Shown here: positions 19,832 through 55,713 of the stretch, piece after piece | Position numbering within the stretch: position 1 is the first letter of the stretch | Layout: the number at the start of each line of letters is the position of its first letter | Assembly: GCA_004322015.1 (NCBI GenBank) | Contig: SCQT01000202.1 | Coordinates: 1-55,713 of the forward strand | DNA: 55,713 nucleotides | Source: Chitinophagaceae bacterium | Lineage (GTDB): Bacteria; Bacteroidota; Bacteroidia; Chitinophagales; Chitinophagaceae | Direction of reading: 5' to 3' | Translations under genes and position numbers: made by a program | The notes under the pieces: model-generated | Told to the model about the DNA's origin: nothing | Seen by the model: the letters and a program-made list of their open reading frames with translations, nothing else | Databases searched by the model: none

Positions 19832-20233
19832 ATGAAAAAGCTACTGATTGCATCCGTTTTACTTCTGGGAATTGGCATTAGCGGATTTGCACAAACCAGT
19901 CAGGTACGGGTGATCGCGCTGTTGAACAAAGCTTCCTGGTGCCCTGTATGCCAGGTTAATGGAGCCCGTTTTACGAAAGATATTATGCCAATGGTCATGA
20001 CAAACAAACAAATAAAGATAGTCAAAAACGACCTGTTAGATGATAAGACCAAAGGAGTGCCCATGAAGATGCTCGAAAAGGCACGGATCGCTGATTTTGC
20101 AAAAGACAATACGGCTACCGGGATGCTCTATTTCCTGGATGACAAAACAAAAAAACTCATATCCAAGGTAAGTATTGCAGCGCCGGATGGGAAAATCAGG
20201 CAGGTCTTTAAAGAAGTGCTGATGAAGGGATAG
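19832..20233 (+). CDS. Secreted thioredoxin-like protein with a C-P-V-C active site
   Basis: A 133-residue product with a signal peptide (MKKLLIASVLLLGIGISGFA). A thioredoxin-like fold begins at VRVIALLNKASWCPVCQ with the redox pair Cys37 and Cys40. The rest is helical and charged, with a beta-strand TGMLYFLDD. It would act as a periplasmic thiol oxidoreductase or metal(loid)-stress protein. It is convergent with the arsenosugar glycosyltransferase downstream; the exact partner is unknown. Confidence 0.75.
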   Translation: MKKLLIASVLLLGIGISGFAQTSQVRVIALLNKASWCPVCQVNGARFTKDIMPMVMTNKQIKIVKNDLLDDKTKGVPMKMLEKARIADFAKDNTATGMLYFLDDKTKKLISKVSIAAPDGKIRQVFKEVLMKG

Positions 20234-28838: not shown

Positions 28839-30527
28839 ATGATGCCGGAAATTAAAGATCAAATAAAAGAAGGTTCAGCTAAAGTTGCTTTAACCATCAG
28901 CGGGATGACCTGTGACCATTGCGCAGTAACCATAGAAAAAATAGTAAAAAGAAATAAGGGTGTTAAAAGTGCCGATATCAATTTTAAAAACGGGACAGGC
29001 GAAATAGAATTTGACCCCGCAGCTATTAGCAAAGATGAGATCATCCAATCTATCAACAGGTCTAAATCTTACCGTGCTAAACAAAACGATATGGATGTCA
29101 ACGGAAATGGTTCCAGCCACCATTTTGACCTGATCATTGTTGGTGGTGGTTCGGGAGCCTTTTCTGCAGCCATCACAGCAGAAAACCTGGGGCTTACCAC
29201 GCTAATGGTAAATGCAGGATTACCTTTCGGCGGCACCTGCGTAAATGTAGGCTGTGTGCCTTCCAAAACGCTTATTCGTGCTGCGGAAACAGCCTACCAT
29301 GCCACCCATTCCAACTTTGCGAGTATCAAACCAAAAGGCGTTGATATTGATTTTGCACAGGTGATAAAAGATAAAAAACAATTGGTGAAAACGCTTCAGC
29401 AAAAAAAATACATGGATGTGGTAAGCGATTTCCAATATCTTCAAATGGTTGAAGGCCGGGCCGAATTTGTGGATGATAAAACTATTATGGTAAATGGTAA
29501 AAATAAATACACTGCCATAAAATTTATCATAGCCACCAGCGCCACTACGAATATCCCGGATATTGAAGGACTAAAAGATGTTGGTTACCTCACCCATGCT
29601 TCCTTATTTGATTTGGAGGAACAGCCGGGAAGTATCACCATTATGGGAGCAGGCTATATTGGCTGTGAACTAGCGATGGCTTATAATCGCCTCAGCACAA
29701 AGGTGCGCATCATTGAATTTACCGACCGTGTATTGCGTACTCAAACACCCGATATCAGCGAAGAACTGGAAAAAAATATGAGAGATGAAGGCATCGGGAT
29801 ATTACCCAATTTCCGGACTGTCAAATGTGAAAAGTCAGGAAATAACACCCTTATCCATTGCAAATGTCCGGATGGTTCTTTTACTCAATTAGTTGAACCG
29901 GGCAAAGTAGTAGTGGCAACCGGTACCAAAGCCAACACACAAAAACTGGGATTAGATAAAATTGGTTTACATTTAACTGCAAGTGGGCATATACAGGTGA
30001 ATGAATTAATGGGAACCAACCTGCAAAATATATATGCCGTTGGGGATGTCGCTAATACTCCCGCGTATGTTTATACGGCAGCTTATGAGGGAAAGATTGC
30101 TGTTGAAAATGCCTTTACAGGAAGTGAAAATAAAACCGATTATGCTGCATTGCCCTGGGTAGTATATACAGATCCACAAATAGCAGGCGTGGGTTTGGAT
30201 GAAGCACAAGCCGCTGCACTGAATATTCCTTTTGAGGTATCCAAACTTACATTGGATAATGTTCCCCGTTCTTTGGCTGCCGATGATACAAGAGGTTTCA
30301 TAAAACTTATTCGTAATGCAGAAAAAGACACATTAATAGGTGCGAGGGTGGTAGCGCCCGAAGGTGGGGAACTAATTGAATTGTTGAGTATGGCGATTCA
30401 ACACAAAACCACTATTAAAGAACTGGCAGAAAATTTGTACCCTTATCTTACCTTAGGTGAAGGAATAAAATTAGCTGCAATTACTTTCGGTAAAGCAGTG
30501 GATAAATTGAGTTGCTGCGCGAGTTAA
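28839..30527 (+). CDS. merA: Mercuric reductase MerA with N-terminal HMA domain
   Basis: A 562-residue protein. Residues 10-75 form an HMA domain (ISGMTCDHCAVTIEKIVK). The flavoprotein part has FAD motif IIVGGGSGAFSAA, redox-active disulfide GGTCVNVGCVPSKT (Cys134, Cys139), NAD(P) motif MGAGYIGCELAMAY, and the diagnostic C-terminal vicinal pair KLSCCAS (Cys559, Cys560) that takes Hg(II) from the carriers. It reduces Hg(II) to volatile Hg(0) with NADPH in the cytoplasm. All catalytic residues are present. A second, similar merA occurs at the right edge. Confidence 0.97.
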   Translation: MMPEIKDQIKEGSAKVALTISGMTCDHCAVTIEKIVKRNKGVKSADINFKNGTGEIEFDPAAISKDEIIQSINRSKSYRAKQNDMDVNGNGSSHHFDLIIVGGGSGAFSAAITAENLGLTTLMVNAGLPFGGTCVNVGCVPSKTLIRAAETAYHATHSNFASIKPKGVDIDFAQVIKDKKQLVKTLQQKKYMDVVSDFQYLQMVEGRAEFVDDKTIMVNGKNKYTAIKFIIATSATTNIPDIEGLKDVGYLTHASLFDLEEQPGSITIMGAGYIGCELAMAYNRLSTKVRIIEFTDRVLRTQTPDISEELEKNMRDEGIGILPNFRTVKCEKSGNNTLIHCKCPDGSFTQLVEPGKVVVATGTKANTQKLGLDKIGLHLTASGHIQVNELMGTNLQNIYAVGDVANTPAYVYTAAYEGKIAVENAFTGSENKTDYAALPWVVYTDPQIAGVGLDEAQAAALNIPFEVSKLTLDNVPRSLAADDTRGFIKLIRNAEKDTLIGARVVAPEGGELIELLSMAIQHKTTIKELAENLYPYLTLGEGIKLAAITFGKAVDKLSCCAS

Positions 30528-30579: not shown

Positions 30580-31920
30580 ATGGAAAAATTCGATGTAACA
30601 GTAATCGGTTCCGGTTCCGGAAGTAGTGTAGCAAAGCGTTGCACCGCAGCAGGAAAAAAAACAGCAATCATAGATAATCAACCTTATAGCGGCACTTGCG
30701 CTTTAAGAGGCTGCGATCCCAAAAAAGTACTCGTGGGTATTGCTCATGCTTTATCGCTTAATCAACAATTACAAGGAAAAGGTATTGCAACTATTGCTTC
30801 ACCTTCGTGGAAAGGCCTGATGCAATTTAAAACAACCTTTACAGCACCTAAAATACCCAAAACCGAAGCGGAGTTAAAAGAGGCCGGCGTGGTAACCTTT
30901 CACGGCAGGGCAAAATTTATTGATGAAAACACCATCCGAGTCAATGACCATATTTTATATGCTGAAAAGTTTGTTATTGCCAATGGCGCCACGCCCGCAA
31001 AACTTTCTATACCAGGCGAAGATTTGCTGATTGACAGCACCGTTTTTTTAGCATTGGAAGAATTACCCAAAGATATTTTATTGGTAGGCGGCGGTTATAT
31101 TGCCTTTGAATTTGCACATATTGTTTCACGGTTTGGCGTAAAAGCAACCATTGTTCATCGCGGGGGAAGACCTTTAAAAAACTTTGATGCCGACCTGGTT
31201 AGACTTTTAGTGAAAGCCAGTGAAGAGTTGGGTATTCAGATTGTTTTAAATGCAGAGGTAAAAGGTATTACCAAAGAAAATAATCGTTTTATAGTTCATA
31301 CAACACAGAATGGGAAAGAACTTAATTTTTCTACTTCTCTTGCGGTACATGCTGCGGGCAGAACTGCTGATATATTGGATATGGGTCTGGAAAAGATGAA
31401 TGTTTCTTTTGATAAAAAAGGAGTAGCAGTGAATGAATATATGCAAAGTGTATCGAATGAAAATGTATATTCTTGTGGCGATGCCAATGATAAAGGAATG
31501 CCGTTAACGCCTGTTGGAGGAAAGGAGGCGATTGTGCTGGCGAGTAATTTATTAAAAGGGAATCATAAAAAAATCGAGTATGGCCATATCCCTTCCAATG
31601 TCTTTACCATCCCGGCTCTTGGGGCTGTTGGATTAACGGAGCAGGAAGCAAAAAATAAAAACTTAAATTATACCGTACATTTTAAAGAGACTACAGATTG
31701 GTATTCTTCCCGGAGGCTTAATGAACCGGTTTCTGGTTTTAAAGTATTGGTTGATAAAGAAACAGACCAGATTATCGGCGCGCATCTTTTAGGAACTAAT
31801 GCCGAAGAAACCATCAACCTGTTTACATTGGCAATGAATGCAGGAATAACAGCAAGTGTTTTGAGAAAAACAATTTTTTCTTATCCTACTAATGCTTCTG
31901 ATATTGTTTATATGTTATAA
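30580..31920 (+). CDS. FAD/NAD(P) disulfide reductase-like flavoprotein of the mercury operon
   Basis: A 446-residue pyridine-nucleotide disulfide oxidoreductase: VTVIGSGSGSSVAKRC, active-site GTCALRGCDPKK with the C-x4-C pair, LLVGGGYIAFEFA, VYSCGDAND, and a C-terminal SYPTNASDIVYML. It is not MerA: the terminal CC pair is absent. It resembles the glutathione-reductase-like group found beside VKOR-type genes in this family. It follows merA by 52 bases. A second copy of its 3' end survives at 35863-35940. Confidence 0.87.
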   Translation: MEKFDVTVIGSGSGSSVAKRCTAAGKKTAIIDNQPYSGTCALRGCDPKKVLVGIAHALSLNQQLQGKGIATIASPSWKGLMQFKTTFTAPKIPKTEAELKEAGVVTFHGRAKFIDENTIRVNDHILYAEKFVIANGATPAKLSIPGEDLLIDSTVFLALEELPKDILLVGGGYIAFEFAHIVSRFGVKATIVHRGGRPLKNFDADLVRLLVKASEELGIQIVLNAEVKGITKENNRFIVHTTQNGKELNFSTSLAVHAAGRTADILDMGLEKMNVSFDKKGVAVNEYMQSVSNENVYSCGDANDKGMPLTPVGGKEAIVLASNLLKGNHKKIEYGHIPSNVFTIPALGAVGLTEQEAKNKNLNYTVHFKETTDWYSSRRLNEPVSGFKVLVDKETDQIIGAHLLGTNAEETINLFTLAMNAGITASVLRKTIFSYPTNASDIVYML

Positions 31921-32104: not shown

Positions 32105-33541
32105 ATGGAAGACAAAAAATATGACATCATAGTAATTGGCTGTGGTTCAGGGGGGCTTAGTGTAGGGCTTTTTATGGGTATGGCCGGCTTTAAGGTACTG
32201 ATGGTTTCAAAAACGGACCATTCGATTGGAGGTGATTGTCTCAATGATGGTTGTGTACCGAGCAAAGCGCTTATTCATGTGGCAAAAATTGCGCACCAGG
32301 CAAAGGAAGCAACAAATTTTGGGTTGCAATTATCCGGAAGCATTGACATAAAAAAAGCAATCGAGTATGTGTACCGAAGGCAGGAAGTGATAAGGGAACA
32401 TGAAAATGCTGCGTGGCTTAGAAAGCAGGGAGTAGATGTCGCATTAGGTGAGGCGCATTTTACCGGCAGGAATGAAATAGAAGTGAATGACAAAAAATAT
32501 AAAGCAAGGAAAATTGTTATAGCCACCGGCTCCAGGCCGACCACGCTTAAAATCCCCGGTGTTGAGAAAGTGCGGTATTACGATAACGAAAGTATTTTTC
32601 ACATTGAAGCATTTCCCAAAAAATTATTAGTTATCGGTGGTGGCCCCATTGGGATAGAGATATCCCAGGCTATGAGCCGCTTAGGAAGCAAGGTTACCAT
32701 CGTGCAGCGAGGGCTGGTGATATTGAAAAATGACGATGGCGCAGTCACATCCATTTTACACAATCAATTACAACAAGAAGGGATAGAATTCTACTTAAAT
32801 GCAAAAGCCGATCATTTTTCTTCTGCCAATGAAGCGACAATCATTTTAAAAGACAGTAGCAAAAAAAGTATTCAGTTTGATGCAGTATTTGTAGGTATTG
32901 GAAGGGAATTGAGCCTCGAAGCGTTACAATTGCAAAATGCAGGTGTTGAAGTGAAAGAAGGCGAAATAGTAAAAAACAAATATCTGCAAACCACCAATAA
33001 GAATATTTTAGTTTGTGGTGATGTAGCCGGCGATCTTCAATTTTCGCATGCCGCCGAATTTCATGCACGCCTTCTATTAACTAATTTCTTTTCACCTTTT
33101 AAAAAGAATTTGAATAATGACCACATGTCATGGGTAACCTTCACTGATCCGGAAATTGCTACTTTTGGCTTGAGTGAAAAGCAACTCAAAGAAAGAAATA
33201 TCAGTTACGAAAGATTGGAAAGGGGTTTTGATGAGGATGACCGGGCCGTAACAGATAATTATCAATATGGCAAATCAGTTCTGTTTATCAGCAGCAAGGG
33301 TCTTCTAAAAAAGCAAAAGATATTGGGCGGCACTATGATAGCGCCGGGTGCGGGAGAGTTAATACAAGAACTTATTTTAGCCAATGCCAGCAAGCTTTCG
33401 ATCAATGCTGTTTTTAACAAAATATATCCTTATCCGACTGCTTCAAGAATTAATCAGCAACTGATTGTTCATTATAAATCGAAAGATTTAACCGGTACAA
33501 TTAAATCTCTTCTAAATTCACTTTATAAATTATTCAGTTAA
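32105..33541 (+). CDS. Dihydrolipoamide dehydrogenase/mercuric-reductase-like flavoprotein
   Basis: A 478-residue flavoprotein with IIVIGCGSGGLSVGL, active site GGDCLNDGCVPSKA, second Rossmann LLVIGGGPIGIEISQA and VCGDVAGD. The C-terminal interface has the motif YPYPTASRINQ instead of the His-x4-Glu of lipoamide dehydrogenase, and no CC tail, so its disulfide substrate is unknown. The C-terminal 30 residues are hydrophobic/amphipathic and may attach to the membrane. The start codon of the following membrane-protein remnant overlaps its stop. Confidence 0.85.
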   Translation: MEDKKYDIIVIGCGSGGLSVGLFMGMAGFKVLMVSKTDHSIGGDCLNDGCVPSKALIHVAKIAHQAKEATNFGLQLSGSIDIKKAIEYVYRRQEVIREHENAAWLRKQGVDVALGEAHFTGRNEIEVNDKKYKARKIVIATGSRPTTLKIPGVEKVRYYDNESIFHIEAFPKKLLVIGGGPIGIEISQAMSRLGSKVTIVQRGLVILKNDDGAVTSILHNQLQQEGIEFYLNAKADHFSSANEATIILKDSSKKSIQFDAVFVGIGRELSLEALQLQNAGVEVKEGEIVKNKYLQTTNKNILVCGDVAGDLQFSHAAEFHARLLLTNFFSPFKKNLNNDHMSWVTFTDPEIATFGLSEKQLKERNISYERLERGFDEDDRAVTDNYQYGKSVLFISSKGLLKKQKILGGTMIAPGAGELIQELILANASKLSINAVFNKIYPYPTASRINQQLIVHYKSKDLTGTIKSLLNSLYKLFS

Positions 33542-33658
33542 TGGAATACTGGGAGATATTTAAGACGTGGTTTTTAAGCCTTGGCCAAAAAATACAATGT
33601 CAATCCATATATTTTCGGCAGCATGTATGTTGGCGCTATTCCTTTTTTCTGTTCCTAA
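33541..33658 (+). pseudogene. Small membrane-protein gene remnant, frameshifted at an A-run
   Basis: An ATG overlaps the upstream stop (TAATG). The frame starts MEYWEIFKTWFLSLG and is lost at the A6 run 33587-33592. Removing one A restores KYNVNPYIFGSMYVGAIPFF, then a stop at 33656-33658. This looks like the N-terminal quarter of the small polytopic protein that often follows this type of flavoprotein in Bacteroidota. The remaining helices are gone. The family identification is from memory of the pattern. Confidence 0.6.
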
Positions 33659-33776
33659 TTTAATCGGTTAAGAAGGTGAAGCTATTTAAATTAATTTGAA
33701 GTAAGATTAATGAGATAATACAGTTTGATGCTGCTCAATAATCGCTTCTGCTTTTCTTTGGGTTGACATCGTTTGA

Positions 33777-34766
33777 TTATTTAAAGTGAGAAATCTTTAT
33801 TTTTTCCCATACTGAATCTACAAACCAATGTCTGGAATCATAAAAGTTTGCAATGGGCGTGAATCCGCAATGAAGTGCCAGTTTATTGATTTCTTGTTCT
33901 GAGTATTTTTGTGAAAGTTCTGTCCAGATGGGTTCGTTTCTGTAAAAGTTAAAACATTGCTCGCCAACATGCACCTTCTGGTCTTCACAGCTAATTAAAA
34001 AACTTTTGCAAGTGCCGCTTACAGGATCATAAGTTGGATAATGATCGAACTTTGTTATATCAAAATCGCCGTCTAATTCTCTGTTGATGCGCCTTAGTAA
34101 ATTCAAATTAAAAGCCTTTGTAACACCCAAACGGTCATTGTAAGCAGCCAGTATTTGTCTGGGACTCTTCTTTAAATCAAAACCAATCAAAGCAATATCC
34201 CCAAAAGCCAGTTGCTGATTGAGCATCAGCAGAAACCGATCTGCTTCCTCTATGCTGAAGTTGCCAATATTTGAACCTAAAAATAATACAATCTTTCTGC
34301 GTTTTGATACCTGGTAGCATTCCTGAATCATATCAAAATACTCTCCATTTAACCCGCTCATCTGTAACCCAGGTATTCGCTGAGGTATCTCTGCTTCTAA
34401 CAACCGCACTATATTTTCAGAGATGTCAACCGGATAATAAGTAATTCTTTCCCTTCTTTCGGATAAATAACGGAGTAGATGAGTGCTTTTGGTAGCATCT
34501 CCTGCACCCAGTTCCAAGATATCAAACTCAGCAAGCCTTTTTAAAAAGAGAGATGCGATAGCTTTTGTTTGGTTTACAAATATCTCTTCCTCGCAACCGG
34601 TAAGATAATATTCCGGAGATTGCATGATCTCCTGAAACAACTCATCTCCTGCCGGATCATAAAAATATTTCGATTGCAGGTATTTGTGCGGAGAGGACAA
34701 TCCGGTCATTACATCTTTATAAAAACTATTAACTCCTGCTTTTGCTACTATGTCAGTTACTATCAT
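33777..34766 (-). CDS. egtD: L-histidine N-alpha-methyltransferase EgtD
   Basis: A 329-residue SAM-dependent methyltransferase with the EgtD signatures KYFYDPAGDELFQEIMQSPEYYLTG (split here across two sub-motifs), ILELGAGDATKSTHLL for SAM, FLGSNIGNFS, IGFDLKKSP and the C-terminal His/Tyr region. EgtD trimethylates histidine to hercynine, the first step to ergothioneine. No EgtB sulfoxide synthase or EgtE is present in the window. It is downstream of DUF427 on the same strand. Confidence 0.93.
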   Translation of the reverse strand: MIVTDIVAKAGVNSFYKDVMTGLSSPHKYLQSKYFYDPAGDELFQEIMQSPEYYLTGCEEEIFVNQTKAIASLFLKRLAEFDILELGAGDATKSTHLLRYLSERRERITYYPVDISENIVRLLEAEIPQRIPGLQMSGLNGEYFDMIQECYQVSKRRKIVLFLGSNIGNFSIEEADRFLLMLNQQLAFGDIALIGFDLKKSPRQILAAYNDRLGVTKAFNLNLLRRINRELDGDFDITKFDHYPTYDPVSGTCKSFLISCEDQKVHVGEQCFNFYRNEPIWTELSQKYSEQEINKLALHCGFTPIANFYDSRHWFVDSVWEKIKISHFK

Positions 34767-34838: not shown

Positions 34839-35117
34839 TTACTTTACATCCACGCCTTTCCAGAACGCTATACGATTTTTTATTTCTGTAGCCGCCTCCT
34901 TTGGATCGGGATAATACCATGCCGCATCTTCATTTGTTTTACCATCTACCTGCAGTGTATAATAACTGGCCAACCCTTTCCAGGGGCAGGTGGTGTGTGT
35001 ATCAGAAGGGTTTAAAAATTCTTTCTTTACTGCATCAGCAGGAAAATAATGATTACCCTCCACGGTAATTGTATCATTACTTTCTGCAATTACCTGATTG
35101 TTCCATATTGCTTTCAT
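34839..35117 (-). CDS. DUF427 domain protein
   Basis: A 92-residue protein matching DUF427: MKAIWNNQVIAESNDT, GNHYFPADAVKKEFL, TTCPWKGLASYYTL and AAWYYPDPKEAA. The family is small, cytosolic and of unknown function; in several bacteria it is found near redox genes. It precedes egtD by about 70 bases and may form an operon with it. Confidence 0.88.
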   Translation of the reverse strand: MKAIWNNQVIAESNDTITVEGNHYFPADAVKKEFLNPSDTHTTCPWKGLASYYTLQVDGKTNEDAAWYYPDPKEAATEIKNRIAFWKGVDVK

Positions 35118-35392: not shown

Positions 35393-35940
35393 ATGAAAAC
35401 TATTGCAATAAGAAACGCTTTAAGAAATAAACCTTCAGAGGACTTGGAAAGAAGAAGATAAGTAATTTTCTCTCTGCTTTGGGCCTCGTTGATTTTAGTA
35501 TGATCTCACTTCATCAAACTGGTGTTATCAAAAGTCTTCCTGATCTCAATTCTTCTATTTTTAACGGGGATAGAGCTAATGCTTCGAAAGATGCTTATCA
35601 ATCTGGCGTACCTGATGGGCCAATAAGTACAGTAATATATGGATTATCAATCGAGCTTACTTCTGCAGGCGGGAAGTGAGAAAGCCGAAAGAACGTCGGC
35701 ATTAGATGTAGCATTGGGAACAACCGTTGCAAGGAATGCTACATGCGCTCTCTATTATTCATTTAACATGATATTAAACAAAAGGAAATTTGCATTTATT
35801 GTGTTACAGGTGTAGTAATAAACATTTCATCAGCTATCATTACCGCTCCAAGTGTTTTGAAAGGAATCACAGCCAGTGTTTTGAGAAAAGCTATTCTTTC
35901 TTATCCTACAAATTCTTCTGATGTTGTACACATGGTTTGA
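35393..35940 (+). pseudogene. VKOR-family gene with three frameshifts, joined to the 3' end of a flavoprotein gene
   Basis: Read over three frame changes (near 35455, 35670 and 35787), the plus strand encodes a vitamin-K-epoxide-reductase-like membrane protein: MKTIAIRNALRNKPSEDLERR, then FLSALGLVDFSMISLHQTG, ASKDAYQSGVPDGPIS, then SEKAERTSALDVALGTTVA, and finally the redox C-x-x-C segment ICIYCVTGVVINISSAIITAP. Directly after SVLK the frame continues GITASVLRKAILSYPTNSSD, which matches the last 25 residues of the flavoprotein at 30580-31920. So the 3' part is a chimera made by recombination. The gene cannot make a functional product. The 270 bases to the left (35118-35392) hold nothing else. 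Confidence 0.8.
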
Positions 35941-36052: not shown

Positions 36053-37087
36053 ATGGCTATGAGAAATAAAATGTCAAGAGGTGCTTTAATTTTATTTATT
36101 CTCGTCTATTGTACCGGATGCGGGCAAGCTCCCGCTACATATTATAAAGATGGCGTTGTCAACGGTATTAGTCTGGTAGCTCCTGCTCATGCGATCGACA
36201 GCAGTGATTTTCTTCAGCTCAAAAAATTACATACCAATTGGGTCGCACTCATTCCTTATGCATTTGGTAAGCAGGACAGTGCTGTTTTGTATTATAATTC
36301 AAAATGGCAATGGTGGGGCGAACAGGCAAAAGGTATTGCCGCCTGCACCCGGATGGCACATGCGCTGAATATGCATATCTTGCTAAAGCCACAAGTATGG
36401 TATCATCATGGATTCAGTGGTTCTTTTCATTTAACCAATGAAAAGGACTGGGAAAAATGGGAGAATAATTATCGCCGGTTTATCCTCTATTTTGCAAAAA
36501 TGGCAGACAGCCTGCATATTGAAATGCTTTGTATGGGAACAGAGTGGGATCGCGCTACCCGGGAACGTCCTGATTTTTGGCGCTCCATGGTAGATACTAT
36601 CCGGAAAGTATATCATGGAAAGCTGACTTATGCAGCCAATTGGGATGCTTATCTCGATTTTCCTGCCTGGGATAAATTGGATTTCATTGGCATCAATGCT
36701 TATTTCCCTATATCAAATGCAAAAACACCACAGATTAAAGATTTGAAAAAAGCATGGAAACCTATTGTTAAAAAGATTAGTCGTCTGGCACAAAAATTTC
36801 AAAAGCCCATTCTGTTTACGGAATACGGATATCGCAGCATAGATTACACCGCCCAGGCTCCCTGGGAAAGTGAGACACGCCATGCGATTAACAATCAGGC
36901 TCAAGCCATTGCGCTGGAAGCATTTTATCAGATTTTTTATAGGGAACCCTGGTTTGCCGGCGGCTTTCTCTGGAAATGGTACAGTTCTTCATCGCATTTT
37001 CATCGTCATGATGCCACAAGCTACACCCTGCAGAACAAACCGGCAGAGAAGGTGATATTAAAATGGTTTGGGGAAACTAACCATTAA
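36053..37087 (+). CDS. GH113-like endo-mannanase lipoprotein
   Basis: A 344-residue protein with an N-terminal lipoprotein signal (ALILFILVYCTGC, Cys at about residue 23). The catalytic domain is a TIM-barrel of the GH113/GH5-like kind: LLKPQVWYHHGFSG, LCMGTEWDRA with the likely acid/base Glu164, DFIGINAYFP, and ILFTEYGYRS with the likely nucleophile Glu257. GH113 enzymes are beta-1,4-mannanases. It is convergent with a processive GT2, and the pair suggests synthesis and trimming of a beta-mannan-like polymer. Confidence 0.8.
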   Translation: MAMRNKMSRGALILFILVYCTGCGQAPATYYKDGVVNGISLVAPAHAIDSSDFLQLKKLHTNWVALIPYAFGKQDSAVLYYNSKWQWWGEQAKGIAACTRMAHALNMHILLKPQVWYHHGFSGSFHLTNEKDWEKWENNYRRFILYFAKMADSLHIEMLCMGTEWDRATRERPDFWRSMVDTIRKVYHGKLTYAANWDAYLDFPAWDKLDFIGINAYFPISNAKTPQIKDLKKAWKPIVKKISRLAQKFQKPILFTEYGYRSIDYTAQAPWESETRHAINNQAQAIALEAFYQIFYREPWFAGGFLWKWYSSSSHFHRHDATSYTLQNKPAEKVILKWFGETNH

Positions 37088-42975: not shown

Positions 42976-42997
42976 GAGACGGAATATATTCCGTCTC
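42976..42997. repeat. Perfect 22-base palindrome with a nearby degraded copy
   Basis: The sequence runs GAGACGGAATA at 42976-42986 and its exact complement TATTCCGTCTC at 42987-42997, with no loop. A related, partly decayed half (AGACGGAATATATTTTGTCC) lies at 42934-42953. It sits between arsM and the DUF547 gene, both on the minus strand. It resembles the dispersed palindromes starting GTAGAGACG found in many genomes. As RNA it would fold into a hairpin that could attenuate or protect the operon transcript. Confidence 0.85.
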
Positions 42998-43012
42998 TAC
43001 ACATTTTATTTT

Positions 43013-43987
43013 TCAACAACACCCCCCTCCGTCGTAAAACCAGGTAGAACCTGAAATAAAAATATCTTTTCTTCCTAATGATTTCAATGCTTTTGCTGTT
43101 TTATCACAAACTGATAATGGCTGATTGGGAAATAATACGTGTCCTTTCCCATCATCAAAAAATGCTTCATCGCCAAAATAAATGGCAGTTTGGCCGGTAA
43201 AAATACAAGGACCGTCTGCCGGCATAGGATCTTTGATCGCGCATACCTCCACGCTTTCAATCACAACTATTTCATCCGTTTTATAATGTACGGGGTCCAA
43301 AATCCGGTATGGCCTTTTAGCTCTTATTTCAACGGTACCAAATCCAACGTCCGTAATCATTTTGATATACCCTTTTAGAGGCAGAGCCCCACTCAGGCAC
43401 AAGGCTCTCAAACGCTCATCGTGTCGAAGTTCTTCGGGTATTTCATTTTCGCAAACGGGATCGGATAACACAAGCCGACCGTAGGGCTTTAATACGCGAT
43501 ACATTTCATGCAGGGCATGCTCCAGATCATTATGTTTAAAAATATTGAAGAGACAATTTTGCGCGGCCACGTTAATACTTTCATCTTCAACAGGCAGTTG
43601 CAAAGCATTTCCCCTTTTTAACTCCACAAACTGGTTCTGAAACCAGGGATTTAGTTTTTCAGCCTCTGCAAAATTTTTCCTTGATGCTTCCAGCATTTCA
43701 TCTACGGCGTCTACACCGGTAACAGCACCTTTCCTTCGGCTGAAGTAAGCAAATTGCAATAACTCCATACCTCCGCCCACGCCAACATATAAAATTGACG
43801 GATCATTTACCAGGTCACGCGGATGCACGGTGCTGCCACAGCCATAATTCATTTCTAACATGCGCTGCGGTATCCTCAAACCCGGCAACTGCCATACCGG
43901 AGTTGTCGTACAGCACAGCCCTTTTTGTGGCTTTTCTGCCGCTTCCTTATAAATCTTTTCAGTTGTTTCCAAATAAGTATCTATCAT
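43013..43987 (-). CDS. arsM: Arsenosugar-type arsenite methyltransferase ArsM
   Basis: A 324-residue SAM methyltransferase of the arsenosugar-locus type, distinct from the broken arsM at 5488. Cys-rich N-terminus KGLCCTTTPVW (Cys25, Cys26) and MNYGCGS, SAM motif LYVGVGGGMELLQFA, VTGVDAVDEML, AQNCLFNIFKHND, and YRVLKPYGRLVLSDPVCENE; C-terminus ends YDGGGCC. Cys in these places bind As(III). It probably makes the dimethylated arsenic that ArsS uses. Only 2 bases separate it from the PiT stop upstream in the operon. It is intact. Confidence 0.93.
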   Translation of the reverse strand: MIDTYLETTEKIYKEAAEKPQKGLCCTTTPVWQLPGLRIPQRMLEMNYGCGSTVHPRDLVNDPSILYVGVGGGMELLQFAYFSRRKGAVTGVDAVDEMLEASRKNFAEAEKLNPWFQNQFVELKRGNALQLPVEDESINVAAQNCLFNIFKHNDLEHALHEMYRVLKPYGRLVLSDPVCENEIPEELRHDERLRALCLSGALPLKGYIKMITDVGFGTVEIRAKRPYRILDPVHYKTDEIVVIESVEVCAIKDPMPADGPCIFTGQTAIYFGDEAFFDDGKGHVLFPNQPLSVCDKTAKALKSLGRKDIFISGSTWFYDGGGCC

Positions 43988-43989
43988 AT

Positions 43990-45105
43990 TTATACGGTTT
44001 TAAATAATAAATAAAATCCCGCGCCCAGTACAGCGGCAACAGGTAAAGTCATTATCCAGGAAGCTGTTATCCCTTTCATTTGTTTTTTATCGGCCGATCC
44101 ATTTACCATGCCAATTCCAAAAATGCTCCCTACGGAAACATGCGTTGTGGATACCGGCAATCCAAAACGGCTTGCAACGATGACCAGAAAACTGGTAACT
44201 AAATTTGCCGTTAAACCCTGGCCTGCATTCAGCTTCGTTATTTTTAGACTCATGGTAGTAGCTACTTTCCTTGCATGTAATAAACCTCCGATAGCCATAA
44301 CAACAGCCAGTAAGAAAAAATTCACTTTCATTGTGAAAAATTGACAAAGTATTAATAGCGCAATGAACTTTGGCGTATCATTCAGACTTCGTGCAAAACA
44401 TACAGCGCCTGCACTTAAATAATGCAACTTATCAACTAAAGGTTGAAAACGCATCCCCAGGAACCTTCCCTGATATTGTATAGTGCATTGTTCAATATCC
44501 GCTATAGCTACTTTTAAAGGAGATGAAGATACACTCATGGTAAAATCTTCAGGCATTACCAGTTCTACCGGTTGCGGTTTTCCGATGCAGGCACAACTCA
44601 TTGCCGTAATACCTGCTTTTTTCCGAAAGTGGGTCAATAAACGGTATAAAACAGTGGACAATCCGATGGCCATCAGAGGGCTGGCAAGTAGTGGCAAAAA
44701 GAAAGTATTCCCCAGCCTGCTAAAGTTCACCTCATGCGAAGCCCCCATCAAACCGGCGCCCACTAAGGCTCCTACCAAACCATGGGTAGTAGAAATAGGA
44801 ACTCCCAGTTTTGTAGCCAGTAATACGGTGCTGCCGGCGGCCAAAGCAACAGACAAGATAAAAGGGACGGAATGTACCAGCGCATCAGGAACCAGGCCGG
44901 CCCCCGAAAAATTTCTCACCAATGCTTTTGCAAAAAAATAAGAACATAAAGAACCGGCAAAGGTAAATGCCGTAGCCAGCAAAAGAGACTGACGGTACGT
45001 AAGCGTATTGCTTCCCCATAAGGTAGCGGTCCCTTTAAAATTATCATTGGCGCCGTTGGCATAACTCAATAATAATACTGCAATAAAAAGGATTATCAAA
45101 AACAT
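43990..45105 (-). CDS. PiT-family inorganic phosphate (or arsenate) transporter
   Basis: A 371-residue protein with about ten TM helices and both PiT repeats: SYANGANDNFKGTATLWGSN at the N-terminus with VPISTTHGLVGAL, and SRFGLPVSTTHVSVGSIFGI near the C-terminus. The usual G-A-N-D-x-A-N is altered to G-A-N-D-N-F-K-G, as in a sub-branch. Its start overlaps the 3' end of the upstream glycosyltransferase by 10 bases, and arsM follows after 2 bases, so it is tightly coupled to arsenic genes. Phosphate transporters also carry arsenate; which ion it prefers is unknown. Confidence 0.87.
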   Translation of the reverse strand: MFLIILFIAVLLLSYANGANDNFKGTATLWGSNTLTYRQSLLLATAFTFAGSLCSYFFAKALVRNFSGAGLVPDALVHSVPFILSVALAAGSTVLLATKLGVPISTTHGLVGALVGAGLMGASHEVNFSRLGNTFFLPLLASPLMAIGLSTVLYRLLTHFRKKAGITAMSCACIGKPQPVELVMPEDFTMSVSSSPLKVAIADIEQCTIQYQGRFLGMRFQPLVDKLHYLSAGAVCFARSLNDTPKFIALLILCQFFTMKVNFFLLAVVMAIGGLLHARKVATTMSLKITKLNAGQGLTANLVTSFLVIVASRFGLPVSTTHVSVGSIFGIGMVNGSADKKQMKGITASWIMTLPVAAVLGAGFYLLFKTV

Positions 45106-45761
45106 AAATTTGGCAATGAAGTATTAAGTAATCCAACTTTTTTTATTATCTCATCGGGCAGATCAGAAGCCGTATCAATATCTGTTAGTTCGGGCAATAG
45201 CGCATAGGATTTATTCAATTCTCCCAGCTTGTGTAAGGTATCTTTTAATACCTCTGGGGCACTCCATTGAATTCCACCAAATATTTCAGACAATATTTGC
45301 AGCAGCCCCAGCAGATAATAGCCGCCATCATTGGCCGGGCCTATTACAACCGAAGTCCCCTTTTCTGAAGTAGTCCTTTCGGACAACAATTCAAAAGCTA
45401 TCTTTATATCTGCCGGTTCTAACTCATAACAATCGCTTCCTATGATAACGACTTTTTTATATCCAAGGCCAAAGATGGTTTCAAAAGCCTGTTCCATACG
45501 TTCGCCCAGATCATCCCCCTGTTGAACATACTTGCAATAACCAGGAACATCCCAAATATCCCTTTTAGGGACAAAGCGATCATAAAAAACAAATTTGTCG
45601 CACTCCAATTCACCGGTAATCTTCCGGGTTTGCTTCAGTAACAATTGATACACCTCCAGGGCTTTGTCGTCCCCAATAGTTTTTGCCAAACGTGTCTTTA
45701 CTTTTCCCTTTATCGGATTTTTTACAAAAATGATTAGCGCGTTTTTGGTTTTATGATGCAT
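45096..45761 (-). CDS. TIGR04282-type arsenosugar-locus glycosyltransferase
   Basis: A 221-residue protein: ALIIFVKNPIKGKVKTRLAK (nucleotide-binding loop with G-K-x-K-T-R-L), KFVFYDRFVPKRD, QGDDLGERMEQAFETIF, VVIIGSDCYEL with the D-x-D/DC metal site, and VIGPANDGGYYLLGL. These match the TIGR04282 (formerly DUF2064) family, related to sugar nucleotidyltransferases, which co-occurs with ArsS. It probably takes part in adding the sugar or glycerol-like group of the arsenosugar. Overlaps the PiT gene start. Confidence 0.9.
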   Translation of the reverse strand: MHHKTKNALIIFVKNPIKGKVKTRLAKTIGDDKALEVYQLLLKQTRKITGELECDKFVFYDRFVPKRDIWDVPGYCKYVQQGDDLGERMEQAFETIFGLGYKKVVIIGSDCYELEPADIKIAFELLSERTTSEKGTSVVIGPANDGGYYLLGLLQILSEIFGGIQWSAPEVLKDTLHKLGELNKSYALLPELTDIDTASDLPDEIIKKVGLLNTSLPNLCF

Positions 45762-45776
45762 AATCTTGACTTATAA

Positions 45777-46136
45777 TTATAGTGTTATTACCTGATAACC
45801 ATCTATGATCAATCCCCTCACACTTGGATGCCCCTTAAAATCATCCAGCAATGCGACGCCACTATTCTCAACCGCTTCTGCCACTTTAAATGCTCTTGAG
45901 CAATAAGCACACGCTCCAGTCACATGAGGCTTTATCATTTCGTACAATTTGTGTAGTGGATGTTCCTCTTTAGCCAGTTTGGGAGGCCAGGTGACACCGG
46001 CTCCATCAAATAGCAACCTTGCCTCATCTCCCGCATCAGCAAATTCTCTTATAATTTGCATTGCATTAGCTATTCTCGCCATATCTGCGTGAGTTTCTGA
46101 ATCGGAAAATACGATCACCGCAATCTTATTTCTCAT
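45777..46136 (-). CDS. DsrE-like sulfur-carrier protein
   Basis: A 119-residue protein of the DsrE/DsrF-like fold: IAVIVFSDSETHADMARIAN, ARLLFDGAGV, and CAYCSRAFKVAEAV with two Cys near residues 76-79, then GHPSVRGLIIDGYQVITL. DsrE-type proteins carry persulfide sulfur on such a Cys. It lies 72 bases after arsS and 16 bases before the glycosyltransferase gene, in the same operon. Delivery of sulfur to arsenic (thio-arsenicals) is an inference. Confidence 0.83.
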   Translation of the reverse strand: MRNKIAVIVFSDSETHADMARIANAMQIIREFADAGDEARLLFDGAGVTWPPKLAKEEHPLHKLYEMIKPHVTGACAYCSRAFKVAEAVENSGVALLDDFKGHPSVRGLIIDGYQVITL

Positions 46137-46207
46137 ATTATTATAGTGTTAATTGTAATTTTTTTTATCATTCGAAATACATGAATGATGTTTTACATAG
46201 ATTAATA

Positions 46208-47272
46208 TCAGACAACCTGTCCTCCACAGCTCGATCCTGCTCCTGCCGTACAACCATAACAATGCTGTCCTGTAATGATTTTTCTGTTATTCAATGCCTC
46301 CTCATCAAACTGTAAAATATGCCGGCTGTTTTTAGTCTCTACTTTTAAATCCAGCATCTGGTTAAAATCACAATCGTATAAGTAGCCATCCCACCCAATG
46401 GAAAGTGTATTGCGACACATCACACCTTTAGCCGCGGCGGGGTTAAAGGCATTCACCAGTTTTTGCATATAATCGTCATAGTTACTGCTAACAATTAAAT
46501 AATCGAGATAACGATTGATGGGCATGTTGGTGATCACAAACAACTGATTAAAGGAAATGCCAAAATGTTCCATCAGTTGTTCCTTAAATTCTTTCTCCAG
46601 CGCTTCCTGTGGGGGTGGAAGAAAAGCTCCGGCAGGATTATATACCAGGTCAAGCTCTAACCCTGTACCTTCTTTTCCATAACCCACATTATTTAACATT
46701 TTAAGCGCTTTTATTGAAATGTCAAATACGCCATCGCCCCGCTGGCGATCTGTACGTTCCTTATTATAAAAAGGCATGGACGAAATGACCTCCACATTAT
46801 TTTTTTTATAAAATTCCGGCAGGTCATAATATTTTTTATTGGCAAGTATGATAGTGAGATTGCAACGCACCATCACATGACGGTTGAGCTTTTTTACTTC
46901 TTCTACAAACCAACGAAAATTAGGATTCATTTCCGGCGCGCCGCCTGTCAGGTCCACGGTGGGGATATCCGTTTTGGCCAGTGCGTCCAGGCATAGCTGC
47001 ATGGTTTCTTTTGTCATGATCTCTTTACGATCGGGGCCGGCGTCCACATGGCAATGCTTACAGGTCTGGTTACACATTTTACCCAAATTCATCTGAAAGA
47101 TTTCTATACCCGTGGGTTTCAGCGGATATAATCCAATGGTTTGCAACTTATCTTTAAATAAGGGAAAATGTTGTCCGTGGTCTTCTTCCAGCACCTCCAC
47201 CTGATGTTGAGGGTCAGATAAGAAATGATGTTGGGCCTTTAATGATTTCATTTGATTGATTTGAGTAACCAT
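46208..47272 (-). CDS. arsS: ArsS, radical SAM enzyme of arsenosugar biosynthesis
   Basis: A 354-residue radical SAM protein. NLGKMCNQTCKHCHVDAGPD carries the C-x3-C-x2-C 4Fe-4S site (Cys67, Cys71, Cys74). VDLTGGAPEMNPNFRWFVEE is the GGE-like motif. The C-terminal CYGCTAGAGSSCGGQVV adds a second Cys cluster. This matches the TIGR04167 ArsS family, which attaches the 5'-deoxyadenosyl group of SAM to dimethylated arsenic, the key step to arsenosugars. It follows arsC by 62 bases in the operon. Confidence 0.94.
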   Translation of the reverse strand: MVTQINQMKSLKAQHHFLSDPQHQVEVLEEDHGQHFPLFKDKLQTIGLYPLKPTGIEIFQMNLGKMCNQTCKHCHVDAGPDRKEIMTKETMQLCLDALAKTDIPTVDLTGGAPEMNPNFRWFVEEVKKLNRHVMVRCNLTIILANKKYYDLPEFYKKNNVEVISSMPFYNKERTDRQRGDGVFDISIKALKMLNNVGYGKEGTGLELDLVYNPAGAFLPPPQEALEKEFKEQLMEHFGISFNQLFVITNMPINRYLDYLIVSSNYDDYMQKLVNAFNPAAAKGVMCRNTLSIGWDGYLYDCDFNQMLDLKVETKNSRHILQFDEEALNNRKIITGQHCYGCTAGAGSSCGGQVV

Positions 47273-50409: not shown

Positions 50410-51237
50410 TTACGGCGTTAACTTTGCTATAGTTCCCGCAAAGATCAGGCTAAGCTTCTTATCAGCTTCCTTAGCTGTTGCAATAATATCATTAATGTCC
50501 ACTGGTTGAAGGTTTTCAGGGTCACATTCATCCGTGATGACTGATATGGCAGCGGAGGGTAATCCAATCTGATTGGCTACAATCACCTCAGGAACCGTGC
50601 TCATGCCTACCATATCGGCGCCGATCATTCTAAGGAAACGATACTCTGCCCGCGTTTCCAGGTTGGGTCCACTAACGGCCGCATATACACCTTCTTTTAA
50701 TACAGTATGCTTCACGTCGCTTTCCGTTTTCAACATCCGTTTTAACATTTCATTGTATGGGCGACTCATATCAGGAAAGCGCGGGCCGGCATTGGGATCA
50801 TTTACTCCCCGCAAAGGGTTTTCTGGCTGCAGGTTGATATGATCTGAGATCAGGACGAGATCACCTTTCCTAAATTCAGGATGTAGGCCGCCTGCGGCGT
50901 TGCTCAAAAACAAATATTTTGCTCCCATTGCTTTCATTACGCGAATAGGAAAAGTAATTTGTTGCATGGTATATCCTTCATAATAATGAAACCTGCCTTG
51001 CATTATCATTACAGTTGTTTGTCCGATTTTTCCATATAATAAATTTCCTTTGTGAAATTCCACCGTAGCAACGGGAAAATGCGGAATGTCGCTGTAAGCA
51101 ACCGATTGTTTTATCGTTGTATGGCTGATCAGTTCACCAAGCCCTGTGCCAAGTACAATGGCTGCAACCGGGGCATCCCATTCCTTTTTTTTAAGAAAAG
51201 TTACTGTTTCGCCGACGGCTTCTATCAAATTATTCAT
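50410..51237 (-). CDS. Purine-nucleoside phosphorylase
   Basis: I chose the start at 51237 (MNNLIEAVGETVTFL), giving 275 residues, normal for trimeric PNP I; the longer frame to 51282 overlaps the sigma-factor leader. Motifs: IVLGTGLGELI for phosphate, MQGRFHYYEGYTM, LFLSNAAGGLH, SGPNLETRAEYR and MVGMSTVPEVIVAN. It cleaves purine nucleosides by phosphorolysis. In arsenosugar loci such an enzyme is expected to remove adenine from the deoxyadenosyl-arsenic intermediate made by ArsS; here that is inferred from neighbours. It is divergent from the sigma-factor gene. Confidence 0.92.
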   Translation of the reverse strand: MNNLIEAVGETVTFLKKKEWDAPVAAIVLGTGLGELISHTTIKQSVAYSDIPHFPVATVEFHKGNLLYGKIGQTTVMIMQGRFHYYEGYTMQQITFPIRVMKAMGAKYLFLSNAAGGLHPEFRKGDLVLISDHINLQPENPLRGVNDPNAGPRFPDMSRPYNEMLKRMLKTESDVKHTVLKEGVYAAVSGPNLETRAEYRFLRMIGADMVGMSTVPEVIVANQIGLPSAAISVITDECDPENLQPVDINDIIATAKEADKKLSLIFAGTIAKLTP

Positions 51238-51298
51238 AACGGAAATTTTTTTATGAAGATAAATGTTATTAGGTTTATTCAAAATTATTTGCTTTAGA

Positions 51299-51877
51299 AT
51301 GAATGAAAATATTTATAAAATTCCCGATCGCGCTGAATGGGTAGATCTTTATGCGAACAAGCTTTATGCGTATGCCTTCTCCCGGCTGAGAGATCATGCT
51401 GCTGCGGAAGATATGGTGCAGGATACCTTTCTGGTGGCATTGGAAAAAACCGGTACATTCAGAGGAGAAAGTACTTTTGAGACATGGCTCATCGCTATAC
51501 TTCGCCGAAAGATCGTGGATCATTTTCGCAAAATTGCGAAAGAATGCAGCACGTCATTGAATGAATTGAACGAAATGACTGAATCCTCTTTTTTCACTGA
51601 AAAGGGAAAATGGCTATCGGAAGAACGTCCTGCGCATTGGAGTTCATCGCCTATGAATGAGCTGGAACAAAAGGAGCTTCGACGCATTATTTCCGACTGC
51701 CAAAGCAAGCTGAAGACATTGCAACAGACAATATTTACCCTGAAATACACGGAAGATATTTCCTCGGAAGATATTTGTAAGGAATTGGAAATATCTGCGT
51801 CAAACTACTGGGTGATTTTACACCGGGTTCGTTTGCAAATGAGAAAATGTATTGAAAAAAACTGGTTTGTAAAATGA
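51299..51877 (+). CDS. ECF-type RNA polymerase sigma factor
   Basis: I chose ATG 51299 (MNENIYKIPDRAEWVDLYA), which gives 192 residues. Region 2: LYAYAFSRLRDHAAAEDMVQDTFLVAL, WLIAILRRKIVDHFRK. Region 4: LKTLQQTIFTLKYTEDISSEDICKELEISASNYWVILHRVRLQMRKC, the helix-turn-helix for the -35 box. Its stop overlaps the start of the small zinc-binding anti-sigma gene by 4 bases. It probably controls a stress regulon including its own operon. Confidence 0.93.
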   Translation: MNENIYKIPDRAEWVDLYANKLYAYAFSRLRDHAAAEDMVQDTFLVALEKTGTFRGESTFETWLIAILRRKIVDHFRKIAKECSTSLNELNEMTESSFFTEKGKWLSEERPAHWSSSPMNELEQKELRRIISDCQSKLKTLQQTIFTLKYTEDISSEDICKELEISASNYWVILHRVRLQMRKCIEKNWFVK

Positions 51878-54678: not shown

Positions 54679-55713
54679 TTAGCTTGCACAACAACTTAAC
54701 TTTTCCACATCTTTTCCAAAAGCAATAGCCGCTAATTTTATTCCTTCACCTAAGGTAAGATAAGGATGGAAGCTTTGCGCTAGTTCTTTAACTTTAATTC
54801 CATATTTGATGGCAAGACTTAACTCCATTGTTAACTCGCCCCCCTCCGGTGCAATAATTCTTGCCCCCAGTAGCTCATCTGTTTCAGGATTGCGAATAAG
54901 TTTGATAAACCCTCTTGTATCATTGGCTGCAAGCGAACGAGGTATTTCCCTCAACTCCAGCTTTGAAACTTCAAAAGGAATATTTTGTGCTGCTGCCTGT
55001 GATTCATCCAAACCGACTCCGGCAACCTGAGGGTCGGTAAATACTACCCAGGGCAGGGAAGAATAATCTGTTTTATTTTCTGTACCGGAGAATGCATTTT
55101 CCACAGCAATCTTCCCTTCATAGGCCGCCGTGTACACATAAGCAGGAGTGCTGGCAACATCCCCAGCCGCATATATATCAGGCAGGTTGGTTTCCATGAG
55201 TTCGTTTACCTGCACATGCCCGTTTTTGGTGAGCTGCAGGCCTATGTTATGTAATCCCAGTTTTTGTGTGTTCGGTTTTATGCCGGATGCTATTACTATT
55301 TTCCCCGGTTCAATGATTTGCATGACAGAACCATCCGGACATTTGCAATGAATGATAGTATCATTGCCCCGCTTTTCAAATCTTATAGCCCTGAAGTTCG
55401 GAAGTATTTCAATGCCTTCCCTTCGCATGTGCATCTCCAATTCTTCGCTAATATCAGGAGTCTGGCTTCTCAATACACGGTCGGTAAATTCAATAATGCG
55501 CACCTTGGTACCGAGCCGGTTATAAGCCATGGCAATTTCACAGCCAATATAACCCGCTCCCATAATGGTAATGCTTTGGGGTTGCTCCTCCAGATCAAAT
55601 AGTGATACATGAGTGAGATAACCGGTTTCTTTTAATCCTTCAATATTCGGGACGTTGGTGGAAGCGCCTGTTGCAATAATGAATTTAGTGGCAGTATATT
55701 CCCCTTTTCCATT
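54679..55713 (-). CDS. merA: Second mercuric reductase MerA, C-terminal part (cut by the window edge)
   Basis: The minus-strand frame is open from the stop at 54679 to the last base of the window, giving 344 residues. It starts inside NGKGEYTATKFIIATGAS and has IMGAGYIGCEIAMAYNRLGT, YAAGDVASTPAYVYTAAYEG and the diagnostic C-terminal pair KLSCCAS. It is very similar to, but not identical with, the complete MerA at 28839-30527 (for example PQVAGVGLDESQAAAQN against PQIAGVGLDEAQAAALN). The N-terminal part and any HMA domain lie outside the window. It is convergent with the trxB operon, 12 bases away. Confidence 0.95.
   Translation of the reverse strand, partial: NGKGEYTATKFIIATGASTNVPNIEGLKETGYLTHVSLFDLEEQPQSITIMGAGYIGCEIAMAYNRLGTKVRIIEFTDRVLRSQTPDISEELEMHMRREGIEILPNFRAIRFEKRGNDTIIHCKCPDGSVMQIIEPGKIVIASGIKPNTQKLGLHNIGLQLTKNGHVQVNELMETNLPDIYAAGDVASTPAYVYTAAYEGKIAVENAFSGTENKTDYSSLPWVVFTDPQVAGVGLDESQAAAQNIPFEVSKLELREIPRSLAANDTRGFIKLIRNPETDELLGARIIAPEGGELTMELSLAIKYGIKVKELAQSFHPYLTLGEGIKLAAIAFGKDVEKLSCCAS

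Follow-up and report, generated by a model that had tools for sequence, protein, structure and literature searches.

Chimeric pseudogenes made by deletion are a general known kind. Canonical enzymes of the vitamin K epoxide reductase (VKOR) family possess a second (loop) cysteine pair. For mercury resistance in Bacteroidota, the closest described system is GbsMerA (PDB 8k40 and 8k41), a mercuric reductase from the mer operon of Gelidibacter salicanalis for which Hg(II) reduction activity was reported (PMC10587081). According to that paper, GbsMerA lacks both an NmerA domain and a C-terminal Cys-Cys motif, its Tyr437 is the essential si-face tyrosine and the Y437F variant loses activity (PMC10587081).

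Here we describe a locus at which a broken gene of the VKOR family runs into the last codons of a GbsMerA-type reductase gene. It lies in a window of 55,713 nucleotides, the entire contig 193 of a Chitinophagaceae assembly (4.5 Mb, 300 contigs, 97% complete), on which genes of 1453, 1094, 741 and 684 aa are open. The features concerned are listed in Table 1.

Table 1. Features around the VKOR-reductase chimera, in window coordinates
Feature	Coordinates	Strand	Basis
MerA with N-terminal HMA domain	28839..30527	+	TIGR02053 466.9 bits (cut-off 454.45); HMA PF00403
Copy A: intact homologue of the GbsMerA-type mercuric reductase, of the same family as the tail	30580..31920	+	PDB 8k40 E 7.4e-132
FAD-dependent oxidoreductase	32105..33541	+	65% identity to L098 6631-8064
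Remnant of a small membrane-protein gene	33541..33671	+	Translation comparison
Small ORF immediately upstream of the pseudogene	34839..35117	-	DNA comparison
VKOR-family pseudogene with three frame changes	35393..35862	+	PF07884 on read-through protein; profile match
Junction zone	35849..35868	+	Sequence comparison
Copy of the last 25 codons and stop of a GbsMerA-type reductase gene	35863..35940	+	62/75 bases to 31843-31917

The gene that the first-pass annotation called a flavoprotein, here copy A, can now be tied to GbsMerA, a characterised reductase of Bacteroidota, which is its best solved relative and aligns with it over the full length (residues 1-446). Counted on that alignment, copy A has C40, C45 and D46, a CALRGCD motif, and Y435 and S440 as the equivalents of Tyr437 and Ser442. 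No HMA/NmerA domain was found in it by Pfam search, a C-terminal Cys-Cys is missing, and among its best 25 NCBIfam matches none passed a cut-off. A mosaic was sought along the gene and no clear switch appeared; one high value, 94% to a copy in the relative clean1869, reflects a short overlap at the edge of that contig. Relatives of the reductase occur in 162 plasmid records at E 1e-60, all of them less than 60% identical. As copy A follows an NmerA-type MerA, two different mercuric reductases, that one and a GbsMerA-type enzyme, are probably encoded in the operon, and the genes upstream, labelled as an ArsR-like regulator and transport genes, are presumably just that.

Several neighbours have counterparts in two relatives, clean1869 and REEB328. 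The FAD-dependent oxidoreductase gene has one that follows the second reductase copy of clean1869, and the decayed small membrane-protein gene after it is intact at the same place, behind the oxidoreductase gene, in both genomes. The small ORF next to the pseudogene is 83% identical in DNA to a gene that lies downstream of a reductase copy of clean1869 (L015). Between the mer genes and the pseudogene stands an EgtD-like methyltransferase gene (33777-34766, minus strand; TIGR03438 279.4 bits, slightly below the cut-off of 290.9). A second merA-like gene (54679-55713, minus strand) is cut by the contig end and shares 75.9% DNA identity over 1025 bases with the merA of REEB328; given this gene, the island may once have held two mer operons. 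The stretches 42983-47245 and 50419-51877 recur in clean1869 and REEB328, differently ordered and oriented, and the island has thus been reshuffled between relatives.

The broken gene starts with an ATG at 35393, and the chimera ends at a TGA at 35938-35940. Translation in three frames and alignment with two intact relatives place frame changes near 35448, 35671 and 35771, and stops occur in all three frames across the pseudogene. When the frames were joined by hand, the read-through protein matched PF07884 with an E-value of 1e-7 and 32.6 bits (cut-off 27.5), and a profile of the VKOR group matches 35437-35871 with E 4.3e-56, internal stops included. The broken VKOR-like gene of the first-pass annotation is thereby upheld in its coordinates, family and number of frame changes. 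A search of NCBIfam with the read-through protein was negative at E 0.1, neither of the two longest single-frame pieces had a Pfam match by itself, and against the PDB the VKOR profile returned VKORC1 and thioredoxin chains only, at E 0.59-0.64, too weak for use. A start codon and the CxxC (CIYC) have been retained. Differences between the pseudogene and the clean1869 VKOR gene, by codon position, number 49, 37 and 86 (of 154, 152 and 152), which is near the 41, 28 and 99 that separate the two intact genes, so most of the VKOR divergence arose during the coding life of the gene. Since the frame is lost three times, a full protein cannot be obtained from the pseudogene by ordinary translation, and the pseudogene itself most likely does nothing. 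No further VKOR of the group was found in the own genome (97% complete), where the next place scored E 0.485 and contains stops.

Intact VKOR relatives from G064, clean1869 and Hymenobacter are 52%, 49% and 32% identical to the read-through protein. All three score above the PF07884 cut-off (51.4-58.9 bits), are read without any frame change and place their CxxC near the domain end (C134/C137, C134/C137 and C136/C139). The loop cysteine pair is missing from all three as well as from two more distant relatives (L102, L103), and for this reason even the intact gene may encode something other than a canonical VKOR.

Genes of this group are rare. Counting the own genome each time, VKOR relatives were found in two of 196 genomes of relatives and in one of 395 genomes of the phylum, and by profile search in five of 394 genomes of the family, of which two have weak matches (G685 and G837, E 2.4e-8 and 1e-7) and a third, G689, carries a gene that is itself broken. 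The latter (L109, G689 C1:5509204-5509661) is another VKOR-like gene of the group with internal stops. Three of eight reductase-bearing genomes gave a VKOR match: clean1869, Hymenobacter roseosalivarius, where it apparently shares a contig with a reductase copy at a distance of about 50 kb, and Spirosoma sordidisoli, where it is weak and broken (E 0.002). Among plasmids, four records (Skermanella, Deinococcus) hold a VKOR relative at 28-30% identity; viral contigs scanned with the G064 VKOR yielded seven pattern matches and no relative.

The tail that follows the VKOR part had been described as a 26-codon copy of the flavoprotein's 3' end. It is such a copy, consisting of 25 sense codons plus the stop, with 19 of 25 residues identical to those encoded by copy A. 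A search of the own genome recovered this match at E 1.1e-16, the next other place scoring E 0.33, and the best other ungapped match on the plus strand of the window, copy A left aside, reaches 37 of 75 bases; the match is not due to chance. The tail continues the reading frame of the last VKOR segment, has no stop until its end and retains the reductase motif SYPTxxS, including the equivalents of Tyr437 and Ser442. Alignment of the two 3' ends, which had been proposed as a means to find the junction, shows continuous reductase homology from 35862/35863. Just before it, 12 bases at the VKOR end (35849-35860) are identical to 31853-31864 of the reductase gene: CAAGTGTTTTGA.

If the tail were an ordinary VKOR C-terminus, the chimera proposed in the first-pass annotation would vanish. 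The intact VKORs of clean1869, G064 and Hymenobacter end 12-18 residues past their shared last proline, with unrelated ends, and none of the three has the tail. It is therefore not an ordinary VKOR end, and the gene is a chimeric pseudogene whose tail is foreign to VKOR.

REEB328 (84% and 77%) and clean1869 (78% and 68%), the nearest genomes that the scan brought up, have two reductase copies each. In clean1869 the second copy lies on contig C66 downstream of an intact VKOR gene, 1776 bases away and on the same strand, in the order VKOR, ECF sigma gene, small ORFs, small CxxC protein, reductase copy. This VKOR gene stands between a PNP gene and the ECF sigma gene. The PNP and sigma genes of the window (50410-51282 and 51263-51877) are adjacent, with no VKOR between them, so the position of the clean1869 VKOR is not syntenic, and the window counterparts of the C66 sigma gene and CxxC protein are found elsewhere, at 51.3 and 19.8 kb. 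C66 is thus a precedent for the gene order and not the ancestral locus. The CxxC proteins (L098 4826-5227 and window 19832-20233) were considered as thioredoxin-like and rejected as such, their best Pfam E-values of 0.089 and 0.098 falling below the cut-offs; an export signal on them is a guess.

Starting from a gene order like that of C66, a deletion reaching from the end of the VKOR gene into the final codons of the reductase gene would produce the chimera. We consider the loss of a second reductase copy by such a deletion to be the best reading, and a reasonably probable one. An accessory VKOR-family gene would once have stood upstream of a second GbsMerA-type copy on one strand. The deletion would have taken the last few VKOR codons, the intervening DNA and the whole of that reductase copy except its final 25 codons, and the join would have fallen in frame. 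The VKOR part has, in addition, gone out of frame three times. That a second copy existed in this lineage, that a deletion took place and in what order things happened is what we infer. Further decay nearby, at 33541-33671, supports the reading. Against it stand the lack of synteny of the clean1869 VKOR, REEB328, which has two reductase copies and no VKOR match, and the flanks of other reductase genes. In the flanks (up to 10 kb) of 80 reductase loci, part of 234 confirmed reductase stretches and exclusive of the clean1869 C66 copy, no VKOR was detected by the VKOR-group profile at E 0.1; at least 3 kb of flank was present upstream in 68 of the loci and downstream in 71, and some VKORs possibly lie past contig ends. 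A tblastn search of the same 80 loci (E up to 1) gave one match of 30 residues, in L014 with E 0.57, which we took as chance. To locate the site as it was before the event, 119 genomes were searched for the gene downstream of the chimera (36053-37087); it matched in 14 including the own, the other 13 being outside the own family.

A further point against the deletion comes from the first 27 bases of the tail, which are closest to copy A (25/27, as opposed to 18/27 for each of the four copies of REEB328 and clean1869) and suggest that the donor was copy A itself or a close sister of it. This favours a second explanation, in which no second full copy ever stood beside the VKOR gene and illegitimate recombination, perhaps aided by the exact match of 12 bases, copied or inserted a short 3' piece of copy A into the VKOR end; the distance to copy A, which is in direct orientation, is 4.0 kb. 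The last 48 bases, though, are no closer to copy A (37/48) than to the other copies (36-38 of 48), and the two parts do not differ significantly in their match to copy A (P 0.12). Over the full 75 bases copy A matches the four other copies at 59-65 positions and the tail at 62, a similar distance, so that the tail probably does not stem from a recent duplicate of A. By codon position the tail differs from copy A at 6, 0 and 7 sites, as might be expected of a donor that was coding, yet copy A and the other functional copies differ at 3-4 second positions, so the count is no clean sign of one (the Spirosoma tail was left out of these donor comparisons and counts). Relatives do have two reductase copies, moreover, and we regard an insertion from copy A as a tentative and rather unlikely alternative to the deletion.

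It is highly improbable that the fusion was or is a working VKOR-reductase-tail protein, made by frameshift read-through or before the frames broke. The in-frame join and the retained start codon, CxxC and SYPTxxS would suit such a protein, but three frame changes and stops in all three frames do not, and the intact relatives keep a single frame throughout. An assembly or sequencing artefact is the least credible explanation, for all that the assembly is in 300 contigs and one frame change falls at a short run of G, since 13 of the 75 bases of the tail are not those of copy A, which makes a chimera from misplaced copy A reads unlikely, and since long genes such as those of 1453 and 1094 aa are open on the contig, which makes sequencing error unlikely for three frame changes in 0.5 kb.

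The chimera is a record of what was probably the disappearance, from a metal-resistance island, of a second mercuric-reductase copy together with an accessory VKOR. Not all of what had been proposed for the locus survives. The former tandem arrangement has a parallel in the VKOR-then-reductase order of clean1869 C66 and cannot be called general, given the VKOR-free flanks of the 80 loci. Nor is there support for a deletion between related copies, since the junction joins two unrelated genes and offers at most a 12-base exact match nearby. The proposal that the VKOR served the flavoprotein's partner is unsupported: a loop cysteine pair is missing from the intact relatives, and the partnership draws on one gene neighbourhood, that of clean1869. 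Because of the gene order there, one might imagine that a GbsMerA-type reductase once worked with a VKOR and a small, exported CxxC protein as a thiol-redox module in Bacteroidota metal islands, with the pseudogene as a relic, an idea we find very doubtful. A literature search retrieved nothing linking vitamin K epoxide reductase with mercury resistance, and one on VKOR, pseudogene and Bacteroidetes nothing related, as judged by titles.

Apart from this the chimera is ordinary decay: gene loss has left a genuine scar here, though not a remarkable one. Compared with other chimeric pseudogenes made by deletion, 35393-35940 shows nothing unusual: as in these, two truncated unrelated genes stand head to tail with decay near by. 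GbsMerA represents the family of the tail's source gene, with which it shares the lack of NmerA, the lack of a C-terminal Cys-Cys, the CALRGCD motif and the Tyr and Ser equivalents. Its operon has an ArsR-like regulator and transport genes upstream, as the window presumably does; they differ in that the GbsMerA-type gene of the window comes after a second, NmerA-type MerA. Unlike GbsMerA, finally, 35863-35940 comprises the last 25 codons only, joined to an unrelated gene.
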